Made by a program: the position numbers and the translations under genes
In this document: piece after piece, positions 2,691 to 24,951 of the stretch
Numbering within the stretch: position 1 is the first letter of the stretch
Layout: every line of letters starts with the position of its first letter
Notes under the pieces: model-generated
What the model was told of the DNA's origin: nothing
Database searches by the model: none
The model's input: only the letters and a program-made list of their open reading frames with translations
Virus record (IMG/VR): IMGVR_UViG_3300035158_001105
Coordinates: 1 to 51,919 of that record
Reading direction: 5' to 3' (one strand)
DNA from: a virus
DNA: 51,919 nt

Positions 2691-3443
2691 ATGAATAATT
2701 TTAAAAAGTTTTACGTGTATTCGTTATTAGATTGTGAGGGTAAACCGTTTTATGTAGGCAAGGGTAACGGCTACAGGTGCCGCGATCATTTTAATGAGAA
2801 GCGCATGAAAAGAGACACAAATAGGTATAAGGTAAGTAAAATAAAAAAAGTTATGGCAGAAACAGGTTCTTATCCCAAAATACAATTTGTTAAGATAGGT
2901 TTAAGTGAAAATGAAGCTTTTAGTTTGGAAATTAAAACAATTAAAAGAATAGGCCGTAATAAATTAACAAATTATACAGATGGTGGTGAAGGCATTTCTG
3001 GATTTAAACTATCTGAAGAAACAAAAAGAAAAATAGGTAAAGCAAACAGTGGTAAAAATAGTCCAAATTATGGGAAACCTCTTGCTGAAGAAATTAAAAA
3101 AAAGGTGAGTGAATCTTTGAGTGGTGAAAAACATTATCTTTATGGTAAATATCGTTCTGAAAAAACAAAAGAAAAAATTCGTAGAAAATTAAAAGGTTTA
3201 GAATTTTCTGAAGAAACAAGAAAGAAAATAAGTGATGCAATAAAAGGCGAAAAACATTATAATTATGGTAAGCATCGTTCTGAAGAAACAAAAAGAAAAA
3301 TAAGTGAAACGCAAAAGGGTCGAACACTTTCTAGTGAAACAAAAGAAAGAATAAGTAAAAAGTTAAAAAACAGGAAGTTTTCAGAAAAAACAAAAAGAAA
3401 AATGAGTGAATCACAAAAAAGAAGATTTGCCCAGGCGGCATAG
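2691..3443 (+). CDS. GIY-YIG endonuclease with NUMOD3-like repeats
   Basis: The 250-residue protein starts with the GIY-YIG nuclease signature: YVY at residues 8-10 and YVG at 21-23, followed by KG and a basic region. From about residue 100 to the end it carries repeated SEETKRKIS and GEKHYxYGK units. These match NUMOD3-type DNA-binding modules of phage homing endonucleases such as the Seg family. It starts two bases after the previous stop. It is probably a free-standing homing endonuclease that cuts DNA at a long recognition site. The target cannot be seen. Homing activity is inferred from the family. Confidence 0.85.
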   Translation: MNNFKKFYVYSLLDCEGKPFYVGKGNGYRCRDHFNEKRMKRDTNRYKVSKIKKVMAETGSYPKIQFVKIGLSENEAFSLEIKTIKRIGRNKLTNYTDGGEGISGFKLSEETKRKIGKANSGKNSPNYGKPLAEEIKKKVSESLSGEKHYLYGKYRSEKTKEKIRRKLKGLEFSEETRKKISDAIKGEKHYNYGKHRSEETKRKISETQKGRTLSSETKERISKKLKNRKFSEKTKRKMSESQKRRFAQAA

Positions 3444-6702: not shown

Positions 6703-7181
6703 TGCCCAAAATTGTATCCATTTCTTGGGATAAATATATCAAAGATATTTATTTTTTGATAGAATTAATCAAGAAAAGGCATGAAAAATATGATTTTGTT
6801 TTAGGCGTTGCTCGAGGCGGTCTTTTTCCTGCAGTCATTGCTAGCCATGCTCTAAAAATCCCTCTTAGAATAGTTTTTGCAGAACGTAGAAAAATAGCTA
6901 AGAATAAGTATTCTGCGATTATACAAAATATGCCTGTTGTATGCTATAAGGATAAAATACTTATTATCGATGATGTTTACGATGAAGGGGTTACAGCAAA
7001 GACTATTCTAGATGAACTCTTAGCAATAGACGATGGCAGTGAATTATCTTTTGCCTTTGTTTATAGTAAAAGTAATTTTGACGAAAAATTAATTGCAAAT
7101 ACAAAAAGTATCATTTGTGGAACAAAGTTTACAAAAAACGAATGGATTAAATACCCTTACGAAATAGAAACGGAGGTATAA
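6702..7181 (+). CDS. Type I phosphoribosyltransferase
   Basis: The 159-residue protein contains the PRPP-binding signature KILIIDDVYDEGVTAKT preceded by GVARGGLFPA, the arrangement seen in type I phosphoribosyltransferases such as hypoxanthine/guanine or xanthine enzymes. It would transfer ribose-5-phosphate from PRPP to a base; the base is not known. Position between FolE2 and a kinase suggests purine or deazapurine salvage, which is inference. TAATG overlaps at both ends show translational coupling. Confidence 0.85.
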   Translation: MPKIVSISWDKYIKDIYFLIELIKKRHEKYDFVLGVARGGLFPAVIASHALKIPLRIVFAERRKIAKNKYSAIIQNMPVVCYKDKILIIDDVYDEGVTAKTILDELLAIDDGSELSFAFVYSKSNFDEKLIANTKSIICGTKFTKNEWIKYPYEIETEV

Positions 7182-9115
7182 TGGATAGTTTTTATATTGC
7201 GTTATCGGGTGCACAAGGTACGGGAAAGTGTGTTAAAAAGGGTTCTATATTATTTACGCAACATGGTATGGTACCTATTGAATATTATTTTGGTAAAAAC
7301 AATATTGAAGATACAGTAAAAAGAAAAAAAATAGAGCTTTTTACAAATGAAGGAATTAAAAATACTTCTCATACTTATGAAGGCGGTAATAAAAATGGAT
7401 ACGAGATTATTACAAGATCAGGATACAATTTGGGAGGTACGTCAAAACATAAGATATTAATTTGGAATAAAAATTGTGAATTTGAATATAAAAAGTTAAA
7501 AGATATCAAAAAGGGTGAATATGCAGTTATACAACGCGGACAAAATTATTTTGGACAAGAATTTAAAATTAAATTTAATTTTAAGAAAAAGAAACACACC
7601 AGCAATTTTCAAGATTGTAAAGTACCTAGGATTCTAGATAAGGATTTAGCAGAATTACTAGGTTGGTTAGTAGGAGAAGGATACATATATGGTAATAGCG
7701 TCCGTTTTTCAAATAAGGATGTTAAAGTAGTTAAAAGAATACAGAAGCTTTTTAAGAAAAAATTCACATTAAAACTCCATGCGTGCAGTAAAGAGAGTAT
7801 TGATTATGTAATTACAAGTGCCATGTGCAAGGAGTTTTTAATTTATTTAGGCTTGAAAGATGTGATTTCATGTAAAAAGGAAATACCATATAGTATTTTA
7901 AGATCACCTAAAAATATTATTAAATACTTTATAAGAGCAATTTTTGATGCCGAAGCATATGTTTCTAAAAAACATTGTGAAATAGAATTTGCTTCAGCAT
8001 CAGAAAAATTAGTAGATCAATTAATGATGTGTTTGCTTAATTTCAATATTGTTTGTTTTAAGAGAAAAAGACAAAAAATGGCAACAAATGGTAAGTGGAT
8101 AAAACGTAATTATTACTCATTGTTTTTAAACAAGAGCAATTGTGAAATTTTTGCAAAAGAAATAGGGTTCGGTTTAGAAAATAAGAAAAAATTGCTTGAT
8201 ACTTTTTCAAAAAAGAATAATTGTCCTAAATATGATTATATACCTTATATAAAACAGATGGTTGTAAACATAAGAAATAAGTATTGTGACAAAAAAGGTT
8301 ATTTGTTAAATCCCTTAACAAATAGTAAAATTGCTAAAATAGTTAAAACATTGTGCAGAAGTTTTAAATGGAACAATAGAAAAGAAGTAAATTATCAACA
8401 TCTTAAAGAAATATTTGAGTATCATCAATATAGTATAAATGAAGATGAAAAAGAAAAAATACAATATTTATTATCAAAACATTATTTTTTTGACCCCGTA
8501 TCTGAAAAAATAAAACAAAAAATGGAAGTATATGATTTAACAGTGCCAAAAATTAAAAATTTTATTTGTAATGGTTTTATTGCACACAATACAACCTTGG
8601 GCGATAAATTAGAGGAATATTTAAAAGAAAAGGATAATACAGTTTACCGTATTAAAAACGTTAGTAGAAGATTGGCCGAGCAAGGCGTACTTATTGATGA
8701 AAAAGGTACTATAGAATCACAAATTAAGATAACAACAACTTATTGGCAGGAAGAAATTGAGAACGATGGAAAATTTGATGTTATTATTTCTGATCGATGT
8801 TTTGCAGATCAATATGCGTATGCAATAGCGAATGAATTACCCACAAGTATGTTAGAATGGTACGGAGGATTTTTGAGGCATGCACTTGCGAGATACAATA
8901 GGATTATATACGTTCCAGTTGAATTTGGTATTGAAGATGATGGAGTTAGAAACATTGATGAAAATTACCAGAAAAAAATAGCAGAGCTTATAAAGAAATT
9001 ATTAGATGATTATGCCACCGTAGTAAAGGTTTCCGGTACAGTTAATGAAAGATTAAACGGAATCATTTTACGTCTTCCACATGAAATATTAAAGGTAGGA
9101 GAAAAAAAGAAATGA
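7181..9115 (+). CDS. P-loop NTPase/nucleotide kinase interrupted by an intein in the P-loop
   Basis: The 644-residue product contains a 454-residue intein (residues 17-470). Without it, a 190-residue P-loop protein remains: GAQGTGK joins TTLGDKLEEY to restore Walker A (GxxGTGKTT). The rest, with SDRCFADQYAYA and an RxY/PVEF segment, resembles small phage AAA_28 or deoxynucleoside-monophosphate-kinase-like proteins. The host protein cannot bind ATP normally until the intein splices out. A related kinase follows at 9900, with the transglycosylase-like gene between them. The start overlaps the previous stop (TAATG). The substrate is unknown. Confidence 0.82.
   Translation: MDSFYIALSGAQGTGKCVKKGSILFTQHGMVPIEYYFGKNNIEDTVKRKKIELFTNEGIKNTSHTYEGGNKNGYEIITRSGYNLGGTSKHKILIWNKNCEFEYKKLKDIKKGEYAVIQRGQNYFGQEFKIKFNFKKKKHTSNFQDCKVPRILDKDLAELLGWLVGEGYIYGNSVRFSNKDVKVVKRIQKLFKKKFTLKLHACSKESIDYVITSAMCKEFLIYLGLKDVISCKKEIPYSILRSPKNIIKYFIRAIFDAEAYVSKKHCEIEFASASEKLVDQLMMCLLNFNIVCFKRKRQKMATNGKWIKRNYYSLFLNKSNCEIFAKEIGFGLENKKKLLDTFSKKNNCPKYDYIPYIKQMVVNIRNKYCDKKGYLLNPLTNSKIAKIVKTLCRSFKWNNRKEVNYQHLKEIFEYHQYSINEDEKEKIQYLLSKHYFFDPVSEKIKQKMEVYDLTVPKIKNFICNGFIAHNTTLGDKLEEYLKEKDNTVYRIKNVSRRLAEQGVLIDEKGTIESQIKITTTYWQEEIENDGKFDVIISDRCFADQYAYAIANELPTSMLEWYGGFLRHALARYNRIIYVPVEFGIEDDGVRNIDENYQKKIAELIKKLLDDYATVVKVSGTVNERLNGIILRLPHEILKVGEKKK
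7229..8590 (+). mobile_element. Intein with LAGLIDADG endonuclease, inserted in a P-loop
   Basis: The intein starts at Cys (CVKKGSILF) and ends at FICNGFIAHN, with Thr as the first C-extein residue, giving the canonical Cys1, His-Asn and +1 nucleophile. Two LAGLIDADG-type helices are visible: LLGWLVGEGY at about protein residues 159-168 and IRAIFDAEAY at about 251-260. Together they form an intein-encoded homing endonuclease. A His in GGTSKHKIL fits block B. Length (454 residues) is usual for endonuclease-containing inteins. The insertion site, between the Lys and Thr of Walker A, is a classic highly conserved target. Confidence 0.92.
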
Positions 9116-18314: not shown

Positions 18315-18968
18315 ATGAGTAGTTTAAGGGAAAAGGTTGATAAACATTATTACCCATATACTAATGAGTGCCCAATAGATGGAAGGAAATGTAAAGAACA
18401 AGAATGCAAGTTTTTTATTGAATCTAAAAGGTGTTGGCTTCAAGAATTTAATAAAATACCACAAGAAATATTCGGAGACGATATACTTTGTGATTATGTT
18501 CATATTAGAGATAAAAGTAATAATTGGTTCCGAGGTGTCGAACATCTTAAAATAGATATGCGTTCGAGCAATTGGTCTGATGAAAAGAGAGGTTGGGTAA
18601 ATGAAGGAGACATTTATATACAATTAGAATGGCTTTTTAGTAGTTGTCGTCTTGCTGAAAAAATTAAAGAGAGATTTGATAAATTCAAAGATTGGAAAAT
18701 TGAGGGGCATTGTTGGGACGGAGGGGACGACCATACTTTAGAAACTATGATTCTTGGTGGGTATGAAAGAAAAAAAGAAATTGTAAAATATATTACAGAA
18801 TTAAAAGAAATGATTCCTGAAATAATGCAAGCTGTGAGAGAAATTGATACGTGCCAAATTTGTCATGAACGTCGCGAACAATTAAAAGAATATGGTAAAA
18901 TAGCAGCCTGCTATGGTTGTAGAGAAAAAATTGTAGAAGAAAACATAGAAAGATATTATAAAGAATGA
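18315..18968 (+). CDS. Hypothetical protein with zinc-finger-like cysteines
   Basis: The 217-residue protein has Cys clusters at both ends: CPIDGRKCKEQEC...C near the N-terminus and CQICHERR...CYGC near the C-terminus. These suggest zinc binding. The middle holds DGGDDHTLETMILGGY. The final ATGA overlaps the PHP-domain gene start, so it is probably co-translated with the polymerase genes. No family recognised. Confidence 0.7.
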   Translation: MSSLREKVDKHYYPYTNECPIDGRKCKEQECKFFIESKRCWLQEFNKIPQEIFGDDILCDYVHIRDKSNNWFRGVEHLKIDMRSSNWSDEKRGWVNEGDIYIQLEWLFSSCRLAEKIKERFDKFKDWKIEGHCWDGGDDHTLETMILGGYERKKEIVKYITELKEMIPEIMQAVREIDTCQICHERREQLKEYGKIAACYGCREKIVEENIERYYKE

Positions 18969-19903
18969 ATTACGTTTCGCTTCATATTCATACTGAATAT
19001 TCCTACCTTGATGGTCTTATTCGTATACCAGCTTTAATGGAGAGAGTTAAAAACTTAGGGCAATCAGCTGTTGCTATTACAGAACACAATCACCTTGCGA
19101 GTACTTATGAGGCTTTTAAAGAAGCCAAAAAACAAAATATAAAGTATATTCCAGGTGTTGAAGCGTATTTTGCAGAAGATAGGAGAGTAAAATCGAGGGA
19201 TATTAAAGATCATCATTTGATTTTATTGTGCAAAAATGAAAGGGGTTATAAGAATCTTTTACAGATGAATTTCGAAGCATTTCAGACAGGTTTGTACAGA
19301 GGGCATGCAAGGGTAGATTGGGATTTACTAAGTAAATATCACGAAGGATTAATATGTACTTCTGCATGTCTTGCGGGGCCTATTGATCAAGCATTTATGA
19401 ACAATGATGAAAAAGCAGCAGATAAGCTAACTGAAAAATTTTTAGCTATTTTTAAAGAAGATTTTTATTATGAATTACAGTCCAATAAAATGGCTGACCA
19501 AAAAAAAGTAAATAAATGTTTGTTGAATAAATCAAAGAAAAACAGTATACCAATATATATAACGACAGATGCACATTATTTAAACAAGGAAGATTTTAAA
19601 GTACATGATATGTTGTTAGCGATACAAGTTAAAAAACCATTAAATGATCCAGACAGGTTTCGTTTTGATGACGATGAGTTTTATATTAAATCAGGTGAGG
19701 AAATTACACAATTATCTGGGCCAGAAGGTTTACCTGATTCGGTTATAACAGATACAGTTGAAGTAGCTGAAAAATGTGAATGGCCATATTATTTAGAATC
19801 GAAAGGCTATCATTTACCAGAATACCCCGTAGAGGAAGCAGAAGATTATCAAGATTTTTTAGAATGGAGAAAGAAGAAAAATGCAAAAACAAGTGTTGCC
19901 TAA
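18965..19903 (+). CDS. dnaE: PHP domain of DNA polymerase III alpha as a separate gene
   Basis: The 312-residue protein matches the N-terminal PHP domain of bacterial DnaE: SLHIHTEYSYLDG, AITEHNHLAST, IPGVEAYF, HHLILLCKNERGYKNL, STSACLAGPI-like TSACLAGPI, and YITTDAHYLNKED. In normal DnaE this domain continues directly into the polymerase core, but here it ends after YPVEEAEDYQ. The palm and finger regions begin in another gene at 20769, after two unrelated small genes. The PHP domain binds metals and can proofread in some polymerases. The start overlaps the previous stop (ATGA). Confidence 0.92.
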   Translation: MNYVSLHIHTEYSYLDGLIRIPALMERVKNLGQSAVAITEHNHLASTYEAFKEAKKQNIKYIPGVEAYFAEDRRVKSRDIKDHHLILLCKNERGYKNLLQMNFEAFQTGLYRGHARVDWDLLSKYHEGLICTSACLAGPIDQAFMNNDEKAADKLTEKFLAIFKEDFYYELQSNKMADQKKVNKCLLNKSKKNSIPIYITTDAHYLNKEDFKVHDMLLAIQVKKPLNDPDRFRFDDDEFYIKSGEEITQLSGPEGLPDSVITDTVEVAEKCEWPYYLESKGYHLPEYPVEEAEDYQDFLEWRKKKNAKTSVA

Positions 19904-20192
19904 AGAGAAAATACCAGAAAAGGTTGATCATCGTTATTTTGAAGCCGCAGAACGACTGTGGCAAATTCTTGACAATATAGATGCACTCAGCGATATGATT
20001 AAACCTACGAGTTTAAAAGGATATGCCGCTTTTTACCAAGGTGTAATGAATCGCGTAGGCGAACGTTTTAAAATACTGATTAGCGATGGTTATAATTTAT
20101 TTCTTCCAAAAGAAGATAATCTTACGATTAAAGAAGAACAACCCAAGGAAGAAAAACAACCTTGTGATGCAAATGCCAGGGAGGCAATGTGA
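19881..20192 (+). CDS. Small helical protein between dnaE fragments
   Basis: A 103-residue protein overlapping the PHP gene by 23 bases, with an A/G-rich SD-like stretch before its ATG. It looks helical (YFEAAERLWQILDNIDALSDMIKP) with a charged, Pro/Glu-rich tail. No family recognised. It is one of two genes that separate the PHP domain from the polymerase core. Confidence 0.6.
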   Translation: MQKQVLPKEKIPEKVDHRYFEAAERLWQILDNIDALSDMIKPTSLKGYAAFYQGVMNRVGERFKILISDGYNLFLPKEDNLTIKEEQPKEEKQPCDANAREAM

Positions 20193-20776
20193 TATTAGAT
20201 AAAATACCAAAACCAGAGACATTTTGGTATGAGGATAAAGATGGGAATAAGATATTTTGTAAGCCAGGTGATATGCCATCGGGACCTTGGGAATATCAAT
20301 ATTTTATTACTACAGAGGTTTCTGAATCTGTTTGTACTAGTGCAAAAGAAACACCAAAATGGTTAAAATTTATTGATAAGATATATAAAAAAATTTTTGG
20401 TAGATGGGCAGGGTATAATAGTCAAATAATGAAAAGTGGAAATTCTGTAAATTGTATTACACCCATTGTAAAATACCTAATAGATAAAGGATGGAACGTA
20501 GATGAAGCATGTATCATAGGCTCTGGGTTGTGTGAAAGATGCTTAAATATTGTACTATGGGAAGTAGAAGGAGGAGAACCTGACAGACACTACTTAAATA
20601 CTGTTCATACCGAGTGTAAATACTGCAAAATAGTGGATCCCAAATACGCCAAGTGGAGATATAGTGTATCTGAACGTATGGATAAAACAAAAGAATGGTT
20701 TGTTGAGGCTAAAAAGCATTTTAAAAGACCAAAATATGGTAGTTGGAAAGCAATAAAGATAGGTTTTGATGGATAA
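20189..20776 (+). CDS. Hypothetical protein with CxxC pairs, between dnaE fragments
   Basis: A 195-residue protein that starts with GTG in a GTGA overlap with the previous stop, preceded by agggagg. It contains CERC and CKYC, about 30 residues apart, suggesting a zinc ribbon. It ends eight bases inside the polymerase-core gene. No family recognised and no similarity to DnaE is visible, so it does not fill the gap between the polymerase fragments. Confidence 0.65.
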   Translation: MILDKIPKPETFWYEDKDGNKIFCKPGDMPSGPWEYQYFITTEVSESVCTSAKETPKWLKFIDKIYKKIFGRWAGYNSQIMKSGNSVNCITPIVKYLIDKGWNVDEACIIGSGLCERCLNIVLWEVEGGEPDRHYLNTVHTECKYCKIVDPKYAKWRYSVSERMDKTKEWFVEAKKHFKRPKYGSWKAIKIGFDG

Positions 20777-22538
20777 TCGTAAAGAACTTTTAGATGATTA
20801 TTTAGCGTTTCTTTGTTATAAAGGTTGGAAAAAGAGAATCGAACCTTTTTATAAAGATACTCCTCAATACCAAGAATATAAAAATCGCCTTGCTATCGAA
20901 TTAGAAGTTATCCAAGGCAAGAATTTATCATCTTACCATTTGATCGTTGCCGATTATGTTAATTGGGCGATAAAGCAAGGAATATTAGTAGGTCCTGCAA
21001 GAGGTTCCGCAGCAGGAAGTCTTGTCTGTTATCTTATTGGTATAACAAGAGTGGATCCTTTGATATACGATTTGTTATTTGAAAGATACATTAATCCAGA
21101 AAGAGAAGCATTATCTGATATCGATTTAGATTTTGAAGATAGAAGAAGAGATGAAGTGAAAGATTATCTCAAACAAAAATACGGCGATGATAGAGTAGCT
21201 GGTATTGCAACTTTATCTCGGTTAGGCGCCAAGTCAGTGATTAAAGATGTAGCAAGATCTCTGCAGATAGCGGGTAAGGATACTTTTACTTTAGCAAATC
21301 AAATTACGAATACAATACCCGGTATAGAAACGGCATTAGAAGAAGCACAAGATATGTCAGAGGCATTTGTGAAATACATGACGCAATTCCCACAACTTTG
21401 GAATTATGCAAAAGGCCTTGAAGGAATTATTAGACAACCTGGAATGCATGCAGCAGGGGCTATTATCTCAGATAAACCATTAGCAGAACATATGCCATTA
21501 CAAGTACAAAAAGAAGTTATTACAACACAATATGATAAGGATATTTTAGAAGAAGCAGGATTTTTAAAAGTAGATTTGCTAGGGTTAAAAAATTTAACCA
21601 TTATACAGGATACAAAACGAAATATTAAAAAGTTATATGGTAAGGAATTAAAGAAAATACCCCTTGGTAATGAAAAAACATATCAATTATTAAGAGCAGG
21701 TCAAACATCAGGCGTTTTTCAATTAGAATCGCAAGGTATGCGAGTACTTCTGCGAGATATTGCTGTTAGTGATATTAACGATTTAGCAGCGGTTTTAGCA
21801 CTGTTTCGACCAGGTCCATTAGACGCAGGAATGGCAGCACAATATGCAGCAAGAAAACATGGTAGAGAACCTATTATGTATGATCATCAACTACTAGAGG
21901 GTGCATTAAAAACAACTTTTGGACTCATTGTGTATGAAGAGCAGATACAACGGATAGCATGTGATCTATGCGGATTTACGCTAGGTAAAGCTGATACAAT
22001 GCGTAGAGCTTGTAAGAAGAAAGATCCTAAGATAATGAGAAGCTTAGAAGATGAATTTGTAGCAGGTGCGGCTAAAAATTATGTTCCTGCTCAATTATCG
22101 AAAGAGATTTTTGAGAAAATTGTGTTCTTTTCAGGATATTCGTTTAATAGGTGTTTATCAGGGGATACTGAAATACAAAATTCAAGAACAGGTAAAAAGT
22201 ATAAATTAGAAAATTTAGCAAATAAGCCTTTACCTGAAGAAATAACCCTGTATTCTAAAGATGAAAATGAAAATTTAATAGAAAATGAATTAGTAGAGGT
22301 ATTTTCTACGGGAGAGAAAGAAGTATTTGAGGTAGAATTTGATAATGGTGAAACAATTAAAGCAACAATGGATCATAAGTTTTATTGTGAGGATAAGGAA
22401 TATCATACTTTAAGAGAAATTTATGAAAAGGGTTTAGAAATAAAGGATTTTACAGAGGATGCAGAATATTTTGAAGAAATGAAAATGTGGCACCAAGCGA
22501 GTGAAGAAAGTTTGGCCAATGTAGAAAGAGAAGTTTAA
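20769..22538 (+). CDS. dnaE: DNA polymerase III alpha core fused to split-intein N-half
   Basis: I use ATG 20769 rather than the adjacent TTG, giving 589 residues. Residues 1-461 are the DnaE polymerase region: GPARGSAAGSLVCYLIG, DPLIYDLLFERYINPER, the catalytic SDIDLDFEDRRR pair of Asp residues, the third Asp in LKVDLLGLKNL, GVFQLES and RACKKKDP. The extein stops at FSGYSFNR. The final 128 residues are a split-intein N-fragment. The product must be joined in trans to the protein from 23845 to make a full-length alpha subunit for phage replication. Catalytic residues appear intact. Confidence 0.95.
   Translation: MDNRKELLDDYLAFLCYKGWKKRIEPFYKDTPQYQEYKNRLAIELEVIQGKNLSSYHLIVADYVNWAIKQGILVGPARGSAAGSLVCYLIGITRVDPLIYDLLFERYINPEREALSDIDLDFEDRRRDEVKDYLKQKYGDDRVAGIATLSRLGAKSVIKDVARSLQIAGKDTFTLANQITNTIPGIETALEEAQDMSEAFVKYMTQFPQLWNYAKGLEGIIRQPGMHAAGAIISDKPLAEHMPLQVQKEVITTQYDKDILEEAGFLKVDLLGLKNLTIIQDTKRNIKKLYGKELKKIPLGNEKTYQLLRAGQTSGVFQLESQGMRVLLRDIAVSDINDLAAVLALFRPGPLDAGMAAQYAARKHGREPIMYDHQLLEGALKTTFGLIVYEEQIQRIACDLCGFTLGKADTMRRACKKKDPKIMRSLEDEFVAGAAKNYVPAQLSKEIFEKIVFFSGYSFNRCLSGDTEIQNSRTGKKYKLENLANKPLPEEITLYSKDENENLIENELVEVFSTGEKEVFEVEFDNGETIKATMDHKFYCEDKEYHTLREIYEKGLEIKDFTEDAEYFEEMKMWHQASEESLANVEREV
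22152..22535 (+). mobile_element. Split DnaE intein, N-terminal half
   Basis: The 128-residue segment begins with Cys (CLSGDTEIQ) and continues with EVFEVEFDNGETIKATMDHKF, the block B region with its His, and then TLREIYEKGLEIKDF. This is strongly reminiscent of cyanobacterial DnaE IntN sequences. It ends at a stop codon with no endonuclease or C-terminal splicing block. The tail (AEYFEEMKMW...) is longer than the usual IntN by about 25 residues. Confidence 0.93.
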
Positions 22539-23794
22539 AGCAGGTGTTTGATTTTATCATGTTTTCTTTTAAGATAAATAGTAGCATTTGAATAAATAAA
22601 TTTTAAGAGATCGAGTGCATGTGCATAATTATACCAATGAATAACATAAATTGTTTTATTTTTACATGTAGATGATTTTAGAATTTTTTTTGTTATTAAA
22701 TAATTATCTATATCTTGACATAATTTCAGTGTACCGGCTATTTGTACATTGACATATTTTGGTTTTTTGAAATAAATACAGCCATCTCCATCAATAATGC
22801 CTCTTAACAGATGAGGCATTAAATGATTAGGTAAAATAGGTAAGAAAGTTTTAAAAGATTTACGAGGTACGATACCATATTTTGCAAGGGTGGTTTTTAT
22901 TTTGGCAGAAAAGAAAGTTAGGCGGTACATTTGGCTTTTGTTGTATTTTTTATGATATATGGGTCCCATTATTTGATTATTTGTTTTAACTAAGTTTTTA
23001 AGATTTTCTAAAATGTATTTATCTTGTTCTTGTAATTGTATTCCGATTTCATTGTTGCAATTGTTATTTTGTACCCAACCATCAGTAATTAGCATACCAA
23101 GCCAGTATGCTTGTTGTTCTGTTGTTATGTTTTCAAAAGTATTATGATCAACGGAATTATAAGAAGATTTACCGTTAGAGGAAATATTGTGTTTTCGAAG
23201 AATATCGTAAATTGTTTTATGGGTTTTAAAACCAAGTTCTTTTTTAATTAAGGCAGGAGATAAACCCTGCTTTGTCATAGTTATGATCGCTTGCTCTTTT
23301 TTTTGAGTCATACGTTTGTTTGGAGGTTTGAAGGAGCGATGAGTTTGTTTGGTAGGAATATTGTGTTGATTTAATAAGTGATGAACCATGTTAAAAGTTA
23401 GTTTTTTGAATTGTGGCCGTTTGTGTAATAATTCTAATAGGTGTGGAACATTGATAGCAAGTTTGCTATAGACTTTAATAATGAACTTAATTTGTTCTTC
23501 TGTGAATTTGAAACGAAAATCGTGCGTTCTTTTAATTCTATATTGTTTTTGAAGTTTTAAAATAGTTTTTTCACCTAAATGAATATTTTTGTATTTCGTT
23601 TGTATTTTTTGGGTGTGAAGTGGGCGATCGATTACATTTTTGTATAATATTTTCAATATGTGCTTAGTTCGTAACCAATGGTCGTAAGGCGATAATATTT
23701 TGTTGATACGATAATAGCTGATATTGGTATGTTGACTTATTTTTTCAAGTGTTAAAAGGTGCCTTGTGTACAGATGTTTAATTTTAGATTTCAT
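22535..23794 (-). CDS. Free-standing LAGLIDADG homing endonuclease between split-intein halves
   Basis: The 419-residue minus-strand protein has two LAGLIDADG motifs, WLGMLITDGW (231-240) and LLRGIIDGDG (330-338). Upstream are helix-turn-helix-like segments (KISQHTNISYYRINKI and SPALIKKELGFKTHKTIYDI). It lies exactly between the polymerase gene carrying IntN and the gene carrying IntC. Its stop overlaps the stop of the upstream gene tail to tail at 22535-22538. It probably cuts intein-less dnaE alleles to spread the split-intein unit. It is the only credible minus-strand gene here. Its own promoter is not evident, though 23795-23844 is very AT-rich. Confidence 0.9.
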   Translation of the reverse strand: MKSKIKHLYTRHLLTLEKISQHTNISYYRINKILSPYDHWLRTKHILKILYKNVIDRPLHTQKIQTKYKNIHLGEKTILKLQKQYRIKRTHDFRFKFTEEQIKFIIKVYSKLAINVPHLLELLHKRPQFKKLTFNMVHHLLNQHNIPTKQTHRSFKPPNKRMTQKKEQAIITMTKQGLSPALIKKELGFKTHKTIYDILRKHNISSNGKSSYNSVDHNTFENITTEQQAYWLGMLITDGWVQNNNCNNEIGIQLQEQDKYILENLKNLVKTNNQIMGPIYHKKYNKSQMYRLTFFSAKIKTTLAKYGIVPRKSFKTFLPILPNHLMPHLLRGIIDGDGCIYFKKPKYVNVQIAGTLKLCQDIDNYLITKKILKSSTCKNKTIYVIHWYNYAHALDLLKFIYSNATIYLKRKHDKIKHLL

Positions 23795-23844
23795 AGTATT
23801 GAATACGCACTAATATTATAATAGTAAGGAAAAGTTAATAGATT

Positions 23845-23949
23845 ATGAAAATAAAAAAAATAAGAAGTTTAGGTAAGCAGAAAACATATAATTTGACAAT
23901 GAAAGATCCATATCATAACTATTTGATAAATAACAAGATAACGCAAAAC
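23845..23949 (+). mobile_element. Split DnaE intein, C-terminal half
   Basis: The 35 residues begin MKIKKIRSLGKQKTYNLT and end NKITQN, with Ser as the first extein residue. The LGKQ.TY and terminal Asn fit known DnaE IntC sequences of about 35 residues. The penultimate residue is Gln rather than the usual His, a variation also tolerated in cyanobacterial DnaE inteins, where it is Ser. Confidence 0.93.
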
Positions 23950-24951
23950 AGCCATGCTGTTTCTTATGCACTGATCTCGTATCAAACAGCGTTTCTTAAG
24001 GCTAATTTTCCTATAGCTTATATGGCAGCACTTTTGAGCAATGAAAACGATGATGATAAGAAATTAGAGTATAAAAAAGAGTGTCAAATCATGGGTATTC
24101 AATTATTGCCGCCTAATGTCCAGTCAAGTAGCTATTTATACGAGCCAACCACTGAAAATTCAATACAAAGAGATTTAGCCTCTATCAAAAGAGTGGGCTC
24201 TAAAGCTGTAAAAATCATACAAGAGAAACAACCATTCAAAGATATCAATGAATTTTTGATGTCAATCGATGGTCGTACGGTGAATAAAACTTCACTTGGT
24301 AATCTATGTAAAGCTGGTGCGTTAGATTGTTTCGGTATTGATCGCCGTAATTTAATTGATTATTTAGTGGATTATAGAGAAAAGTTAAAGGCATTCGTAA
24401 AGAAAGGTGGGAATCCAGGCGATTTTGAGTATAATTTTCCTAGTGCAATCCCATTGTCGCTAGAAGAAAGGATGAATTATGAGTTTGAGGCAACGGGTGA
24501 ATATATTTCCGGAAATAAGAGCGATATATACACAGGGTTTTTTAATCAGGAACGAAACATTAAGTACGCTCGCGATCTCCAAAATATGTGTAATAACGCA
24601 TTGATTAATATGGAGTTAATTGTCAATAGATGTAGAATGAAAAGGCCAATTAAAGAAGGTAGAAACCAAGGCAAGCTATGGGCAATATATGAAATGGAAG
24701 ATGTGTGGGGAGACATTGTTAATATTATAATGTGGCCAACACAATTAGAAAAATTTGGCAAACATATGACACCAGGAGAGGCAATTAAAATAGAAGGACA
24801 AGTTAGTGTAAGAAATGATGAATCATCTGATAGGCAAGTTAAAATAAGGAAGATAAAAGATACTTATTCTGCTTTTAAAGAACGATCAACAACAGTAAGT
24901 GTAACGAATCAAGGGAACAATGTACAAGTAACCCTTGAAACATTGAATTAA
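23845..24951 (+). CDS. dnaE: Split-intein C-half fused to DNA polymerase III alpha C-terminus
   Basis: The 368-residue protein begins with a 35-residue IntC, then SHAVSYALISYQTAFLKANF, the exact continuation of DnaE after GY.FN(K/R). It continues with SIKRVGSKAVKIIQ (tandem helix-hairpin-helix region), LCKAGALDCFG and an OB-fold part (LINMELIVNRCRMKRP, WGDIVNIIMWP). After trans-splicing with the upstream product, Arg from GYSFNR joins Ser. No clear clamp-binding motif is seen. A modest SD (aaggaaaa) lies upstream. Confidence 0.95.
   Translation: MKIKKIRSLGKQKTYNLTMKDPYHNYLINNKITQNSHAVSYALISYQTAFLKANFPIAYMAALLSNENDDDKKLEYKKECQIMGIQLLPPNVQSSSYLYEPTTENSIQRDLASIKRVGSKAVKIIQEKQPFKDINEFLMSIDGRTVNKTSLGNLCKAGALDCFGIDRRNLIDYLVDYREKLKAFVKKGGNPGDFEYNFPSAIPLSLEERMNYEFEATGEYISGNKSDIYTGFFNQERNIKYARDLQNMCNNALINMELIVNRCRMKRPIKEGRNQGKLWAIYEMEDVWGDIVNIIMWPTQLEKFGKHMTPGEAIKIEGQVSVRNDESSDRQVKIRKIKDTYSAFKERSTTVSVTNQGNNVQVTLETLN

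Follow-up and report, generated by a model that had tools for sequence, protein, structure and literature searches.

Phage genes for conserved DNA-replication enzymes that a split intein divides in two, a free-standing endonuclease gene lying in the gap, were reportedly described as "fractured genes" of environmental phages in ocean metagenomes by Dassa and colleagues in 2009, and Vsr-like nucleases are said to occur in about half of these loci. In cyanobacteria, the halves of the split DnaE intein lie far apart on the chromosome; this intein is widely used for protein ligation. The "fractured genes" study of 2009 is cited in PMC3653736 and PMC10448857. This text concerns the dnaE gene of IMG/VR virus record IMGVR_UViG_3300035158_001105, of which the whole length of 51,919 bases is the window analyzed here and which carries phage genes including a large terminase, a primase, and a UvsX-like recombinase. 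With high confidence, we consider this dnaE to be fractured at FN[KR]|S by a split intein and its product to be trans-spliced, with an antisense homing endonuclease gene (HEG) in the gap that probably homes the whole insert.

The DnaE of the window is spread over three plus-strand open reading frames (ORFs), encoding the PHP domain, the polymerase core with the N-terminal intein half (IntN), and the C-terminal intein half (IntC) with the C-terminal part of DnaE. Briefly, the IntN-bearing ORF (20766/20769–22538) begins with an N-extein of 461 residues (from the ATG at 20769 to 22151; Pfam DNA_pol3_alpha, E 2.9e-82; finger domain, 1e-50), which contains DIDLDF and VDLLGL, presumably matching the catalytic Asp motifs of the E. 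coli alpha subunit, and which ends in GYSFNR. IntN (22152–22538) follows with Cys1 (CLSGDT) at 22152, block B (TMDHKF), and an acidic tail, and is closed by TAA after 128 residues. An in-frame TAG at 23839–23841 leaves no earlier start for the downstream ORF (23845–24951); this ORF encodes an IntC of 35 residues (23845–23949; MKIKKIRSLGKQKTYNLTMKDPYHNYLINNKITQN), delimited from the sequence and from alignment with the IntC of relatives, in which block F is followed by ITQN with its terminal Asn. The frame then continues into SHAVSYALISYQTAF, the C-extein of 333 residues (23950–24951) opening with SHAVSYALISYQT and comprising HhH and OB-fold regions (Pfam HHH_6, 3e-17). These are the parts listed in an earlier note on this DNA, namely a core ending in GYSFNR, a Cys-starting IntN of 128 residues with a stop, and a second gene in which an IntC of 35 residues ending in Asn precedes the natural DnaE continuation; all were found again in the sequence, and the two exteins are contiguous on the family profile phrog_405. 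The same note placed dnaE in two polypeptides, which is right for the split-intein break but overlooks a break further upstream (18965–20776), between the PHP and polymerase pieces, so that three pieces result. The PHP piece (312 residues; 18965–19903; Pfam PHP, E 2.5e-44) ends without an intein, and the break holds two small plus-strand ORFs of unknown function (19881–20192 and 20189–20776) with no Pfam or PHROG match. The three pieces cover positions 42–346, 333–793, and 794–1083 of phrog_405, and nothing is lost at either break.

The intein is naturally split, in that two separate genes carry matching extein halves and no open frame runs across the gap. IntN matches solved cyanobacterial DnaE inteins in the PDB by sequence (E 8e-10), its match to Pfam Intein_splicing lies below the cut-off of that family, and the best PDB matches of its AlphaFold model are Npu DnaE inteins (4kl5_A, E 6.7e-6; 4qfq_A, E 1.6e-5, template modeling score 0.83 for the target). 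A pattern for the C-junction has a single match in the window and none in 100 shuffles. The residues required of a class-1 HINT domain are present, i.e., Cys1, the block-B TxxH (TMDH), the block-F His (YHNY), the terminal Asn35, and Ser+1. Trans-splicing of the phage DnaE is very likely, since the halves are complete and in register, the key residues are in place, and homologous split pairs provide the sole DnaE C-terminal gene detected in Acidobacteriota genomes. The proteins comprising polymerase core plus IntN and IntC plus DnaE tail would be made from separate genes, the two intein halves would associate, probably aided by complementary charges, and class-1 splicing through Cys1, Asn35, and Ser+1 would join the exteins of 461 and 333 residues into a polymerase of 794 residues, with the PHP domain remaining a separate subunit. 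As the PHP piece is separate and has no intein, and as intein-free DnaE breaks occur in other phages, one might suppose that the halves associate without splicing and that the whole DnaE is a non-covalent multi-subunit enzyme, as it must be for the PHP piece; this is very improbable, however, because Cys1, TxxH, the block-F His, the terminal Asn, and Ser+1 are all kept, and a non-splicing scaffold would need none of them.

Between the halves, and overlooked in the earlier note, lies an intact gene of 419 codons on the minus strand (22535–23794), which encodes a LAGLIDADG homing endonuclease with an N-terminal helical/HTH region (Pfam LAGLIDADG_3, 7e-9; phrog_4645 endonuclease, 1.9e-46). Two LAGLIDADG motifs (YWLGMLITDG and LLRGIIDGDG) are carried in one chain, their Asp and Gly residues do not vary among 29 aligned sequences, and the AlphaFold model (predicted local distance difference test score 81) matches I-Tsp061I, I-SceI, and PI-PfuI. 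This HEG is the sole minus-strand gene among the 57 features counted in the window; it converges on the IntN gene, with overlapping stop codons, and diverges from the IntC gene across an intergenic stretch of 50 bp (23795–23844) with a guanine-plus-cytosine (GC) content of 0.22, into which a weak sigma-70-like match reaches. Owing to this orientation, the HEG would need its own promoter, and the IntC gene a promoter within the 50-bp stretch or transcription through the HEG; promoter-like sites in this region are not more frequent than in shuffles. The IntN–HEG–IntC block has a GC content of 0.283, within the lowest 1.8% of windows of the same size, and the exteins have 0.35, a difference that suits an incoming mobile unit. 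The free-standing gene occupies the place where the endonuclease domain of an intein normally sits, the enzyme would probably cut intein-free dnaE alleles, and IntN, HEG, and IntC would spread as one unit through gene conversion. The general arrangement, in which a split intein breaks the enzyme gene and an endonuclease gene stands by itself in the gap, is that of the reported fractured genes; the window differs from those loci in its LAGLIDADG endonuclease, in the antisense direction of that gene, and in the second, intein-free break of its dnaE. The antisense HEG is unique among the loci seen in this analysis and is the new feature among them.

Joining of the halves by frameshift or read-through was rejected, since each of the three forward frames of the gap contains 30–44 stops. 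A self-splicing RNA intron with the HEG inside it, from which a mature mRNA encoding a cis intein would result, is brought to mind by the closest HEG relatives in isolated phages. These I-MsaII/phrog_4645 LAGLIDADG proteins (Staphylococcus Kayvirus, Alicyclobacillus phage MMB025) belong to the same family with approximately 30–35% identity; unlike the window gene they are in sense, are located inside recA or polymerase genes or between the pieces of such genes, and are annotated as intron-encoded in Kayvirus (I-MsaII, Staphylococcus phage rec). An intron is nevertheless extremely unlikely here. No Rfam family matched between 18.5 and 25.5 kb at E up to 1, which makes a known intron type an unlikely means of joining the halves, and moreover the HEG runs antisense, a stop codon closes IntN and a separate start codon opens IntC, and the break is at the usual position of split inteins.

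The insertion site was compared with those of other DnaE inteins. The window junction is FNR|S with Ser+1, the predicted context in an intein-free dnaE being TTTAATAGG|AGCCATGCT, and it lies four residues downstream of the cyanobacterial junction in Y|CFNK|S; the earlier note had the direction right and gave the offset as three residues. Its further suggestion of an independent site was not supported, as many inteins of phage and bacterial DnaE are inserted at FN[KR]|S and the trees place the window intein together with cyanobacterial split inteins. A search with the pattern FN[KR]|C..GDT yielded 24 phage contigs whose DnaE carries an intein at this very position, nearly always in cis, and a profile scan of 84,980 bacterial and archaeal genomes yielded 95 matching stretches, 85 of them confirmed, so that the site is ordinary rather than new. 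Furthermore, a close cis relative, L260, is inserted two residues further downstream (FNRAH|S), and nearby sites thus do not imply separate origins; the comparison shows that inteins related by sequence occupy slightly shifted positions. With the Npu and Ssp inteins, the window intein shares the host protein, the split position, the IntC length, the opposite charges of the halves, and, in trees that leave other deep placements admissible, the HINT sequence clade, whereas the cyanobacterial inteins are inserted at Y|CFN, have Cys+1, and lack an endonuclease. Judged by its site, the window intein is outside the cyanobacterial DnaE intein family; it is probably related to that family and would work in the same way.

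Scans of IMG/VR with the single proteins (IntN, core, C-terminal piece, and HEG) gave no near relatives, and a conserved stretch was absent for a C-junction profile; relatives were therefore found by patterns and profiles. The sole split pair of the first pattern set of 24 phage contigs is L044, in which a nuclease domain is fused to IntN. With an IntN profile, this position was then seen to hold a split DnaE intein in 12 further distinct phage contigs (L255, L258, L259, L261, L262, L264, L269, L278, L284, L286, L313, and L321), which makes 13 with L044. An ORF, always in sense, lies in the gap or directly after IntN in 10 of these 12; it is a LAGLIDADG gene by Pfam in L258 and a NUMOD3/DUF559-type nuclease gene in L262, and the others appear nuclease-like by eye only. 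The gaps of L284 and L286 measure only approximately 100 bp. A close parallel is L258 (IMGVR_UViG_3300002514_005018), which has the same site and an endonuclease gene in the gap homologous to the window HEG (27% over 278 residues; pairwise E 1e-28), but in L258 this gene is in sense and PHP and polymerase share one ORF, whereas in the window the gene is antisense and the two are separate. The window thus has the L258 arrangement in inverted form. At the cyanobacterial site Y|(C/S)FN, split DnaE inteins were found in virus contigs L285, L308 (6908–10728), and L311.

An assembly chimera, in which dnaE pieces of two different phages were joined, might be suspected because the window is a metagenome contig for which no near relative was found. 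Its probability is next to nil, since a single family profile covers both exteins without interruption and their GC is equal, IntN and IntC when concatenated are placed among split DnaE inteins, and the arrangement recurs in many other contigs.

Split relatives also occur in bacteria, the pairs L080 and L128 being from bacterial genomes. In Acidobacteriota, L138 has a cis intein at the same DnaE site, L139 has a split intein encoded in nearly adjacent ORFs, L128 has a gene for a Uma2-family putative endonuclease between the halves on a Blastocatellia chromosome (7437–8147), and three Chloracidobacterium-like genomes (L140/L158, L141/L157, and L142/L159) have an FNK|S split intein whose halves are separated by 0.7–1.4 Mb of the same chromosome, a layout like that of cyanobacteria. 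Compared with the window intein, those of Acidobacteriota (L128, L139, and L140–L142) share the site and the clade, and the HINT domain is 44–45% identical to the best of them, although theirs are chromosomal and their gap is empty, holds the Uma2 gene, or is replaced by the long distance between the halves. In the Acidobacteriota split inteins, too, the Asp of block F and the His before the terminal residue are replaced; both residues are common but not universal in class-1 inteins, and both are replaced in the window. The C-terminal part of DnaE has one match per Acidobacteriota genome, and this match is carried by the split pair; if the genome has no other replicative polymerase, splicing of these inteins is required despite the replaced residues. 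The single DnaE C-terminal gene of Acidobacteriota thus offers the best evidence, indirect and by analogy, that the residue set of the window could work.

Several points weigh against trans-splicing in the window. The block-F Asp is replaced by Asn (TYNLTM) and the penultimate His by Gln (ITQN); the block-F Asn is common to the window, L128, L138–L142, and L056, and a penultimate Gln, Ala, or Ser is found in L039 (Gln), the Acidobacteriota inteins, and Npu. The ribosome-binding signals of the IntC gene and the HEG are weak, and a promoter scan of the region gave no clear promoter. In favor of trans-splicing, no second DnaE was detected in the 51.9-kb record, an intact dnaE being what the earlier note had looked to as counter-evidence, but the record is possibly incomplete and such a gene could lie outside it. 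With respect to charge, IntN has a net −19 and IntC +7, whereas cis mini-inteins at the same site (n = 20) average +2.7 in the IntN part and −3.8 in the IntC part; the signs in the window are those of the bacterial and cyanobacterial split relatives, yet the pattern is also present in three cis relatives (L138, L257, and L260) and absent in some split ones. Charge segregation was thus rejected as proof of trans-splicing, being a trait of the clade, and the pattern is consistent with partner recognition. Taken as signs of decay, the antisense orientation that no other locus seen has, the weak translation signals of the IntC gene, and the two replaced residues would suit an HEG that inserted backwards into a cis mini-intein and broke it, leaving a decaying or non-splicing remnant in a phage that uses the host polymerase. 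We regard this as unlikely, because all three frames are intact and the polymerase core keeps its motifs, the IntN gene has a stop codon of its own after a tail of 30 residues, a separate start codon precedes IntC, comparable replacements are seen in Acidobacteriota in what is there the sole detected DnaE C-terminal gene, and homologous split pairs are widespread.

The relationships of the splicing domain were examined in three trees of approximately 130 columns, which are unrooted and sampled by similarity to split IntN; the Npu sequence was checked against PDB 2keq. In the first tree, the window intein groups with L080, L128, L056, Npu, and Ssp (support 99/94), and the same clade is obtained after addition of Acidobacteriota (97/96), in a tree that also includes outgroup inteins. 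With phages added, a 29-member group is obtained in which 23 of the 29 are split (100/96), comprising split DnaE inteins of phages, Acidobacteriota, Saccharibacteria, and cyanobacteria. Inside this split-rich clade, the window intein falls with L080, L255, L257, L258, and L260 (95/87); those of cyanobacteria are grouped with the virus contigs L285 and L311 (100/99). Placement of the window subclade with other inteins of FN[KR]|S was not rejected by the approximately unbiased (AU) test (p 0.148). The test did reject one common origin for all of the split states (p 4e-79), L044 being placed beside cis inteins of the GDT type. The cyanobacterial split DnaE intein may descend from a phage lineage of endonuclease-fractured DnaE inteins, a scenario that we put forward tentatively and regard as doubtful: the intein would have been split by HEGs and would have slid a few residues around FNKS, bacteria (cyanobacteria, Acidobacteriota, and Saccharibacteria) would later have lost the endonuclease and some would have scattered the halves, and the window would hold a still-mobile relative. 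The phage loci with an HEG in the gap, the cis relatives, and the bacterial loci with empty gaps or distant halves form a series for tracing and testing how the intein was split, and the split pairs are candidates for new trans-splicing tools.

Among the phage dnaE genes encountered, some are fractured more than once. Besides the split intein at FN|S, L261 (721–5785) has a second split intein at GRG|S, L284 (3391–7192) has one at ARG|S, which matches that of L261, and L313 (4300–7198) has one at GVFQ|C; L257 (3843–7852) has a split intein at NFG|S besides a cis intein at FN|S. Intein-free breaks near LDK(I/V/L)M also occur in L259, L261, and L264. An apparently similar break in Rossellomorea phage phiT1 was rejected, since a small ORF and no intein lies there. 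Among the contigs with the cyanobacterial site, L285 (2840–5776) has a laminin-G-like gene between the intein halves, and L311, taken with L336, has tail-fibre-like genes after IntN, with IntC approximately 8.5 kb away. In Bacillus phage SP-15, a "hypothetical protein" (L027, 2674–4293) contains an intein-like domain approximately 31% identical to the window IntN. Elsewhere in the window, a second homing-endonuclease-like gene (2691–3443) encodes NUMOD3 repeats and a GIY-YIG domain, an ORF of 836 residues (178–2688) has a weak HNH motif near residues 544–585, and a very AT-rich ORF of 644 residues (7181–9115) combines a thymidylate kinase-like C-terminal part with an N-terminal part that matches a terminase-like profile.

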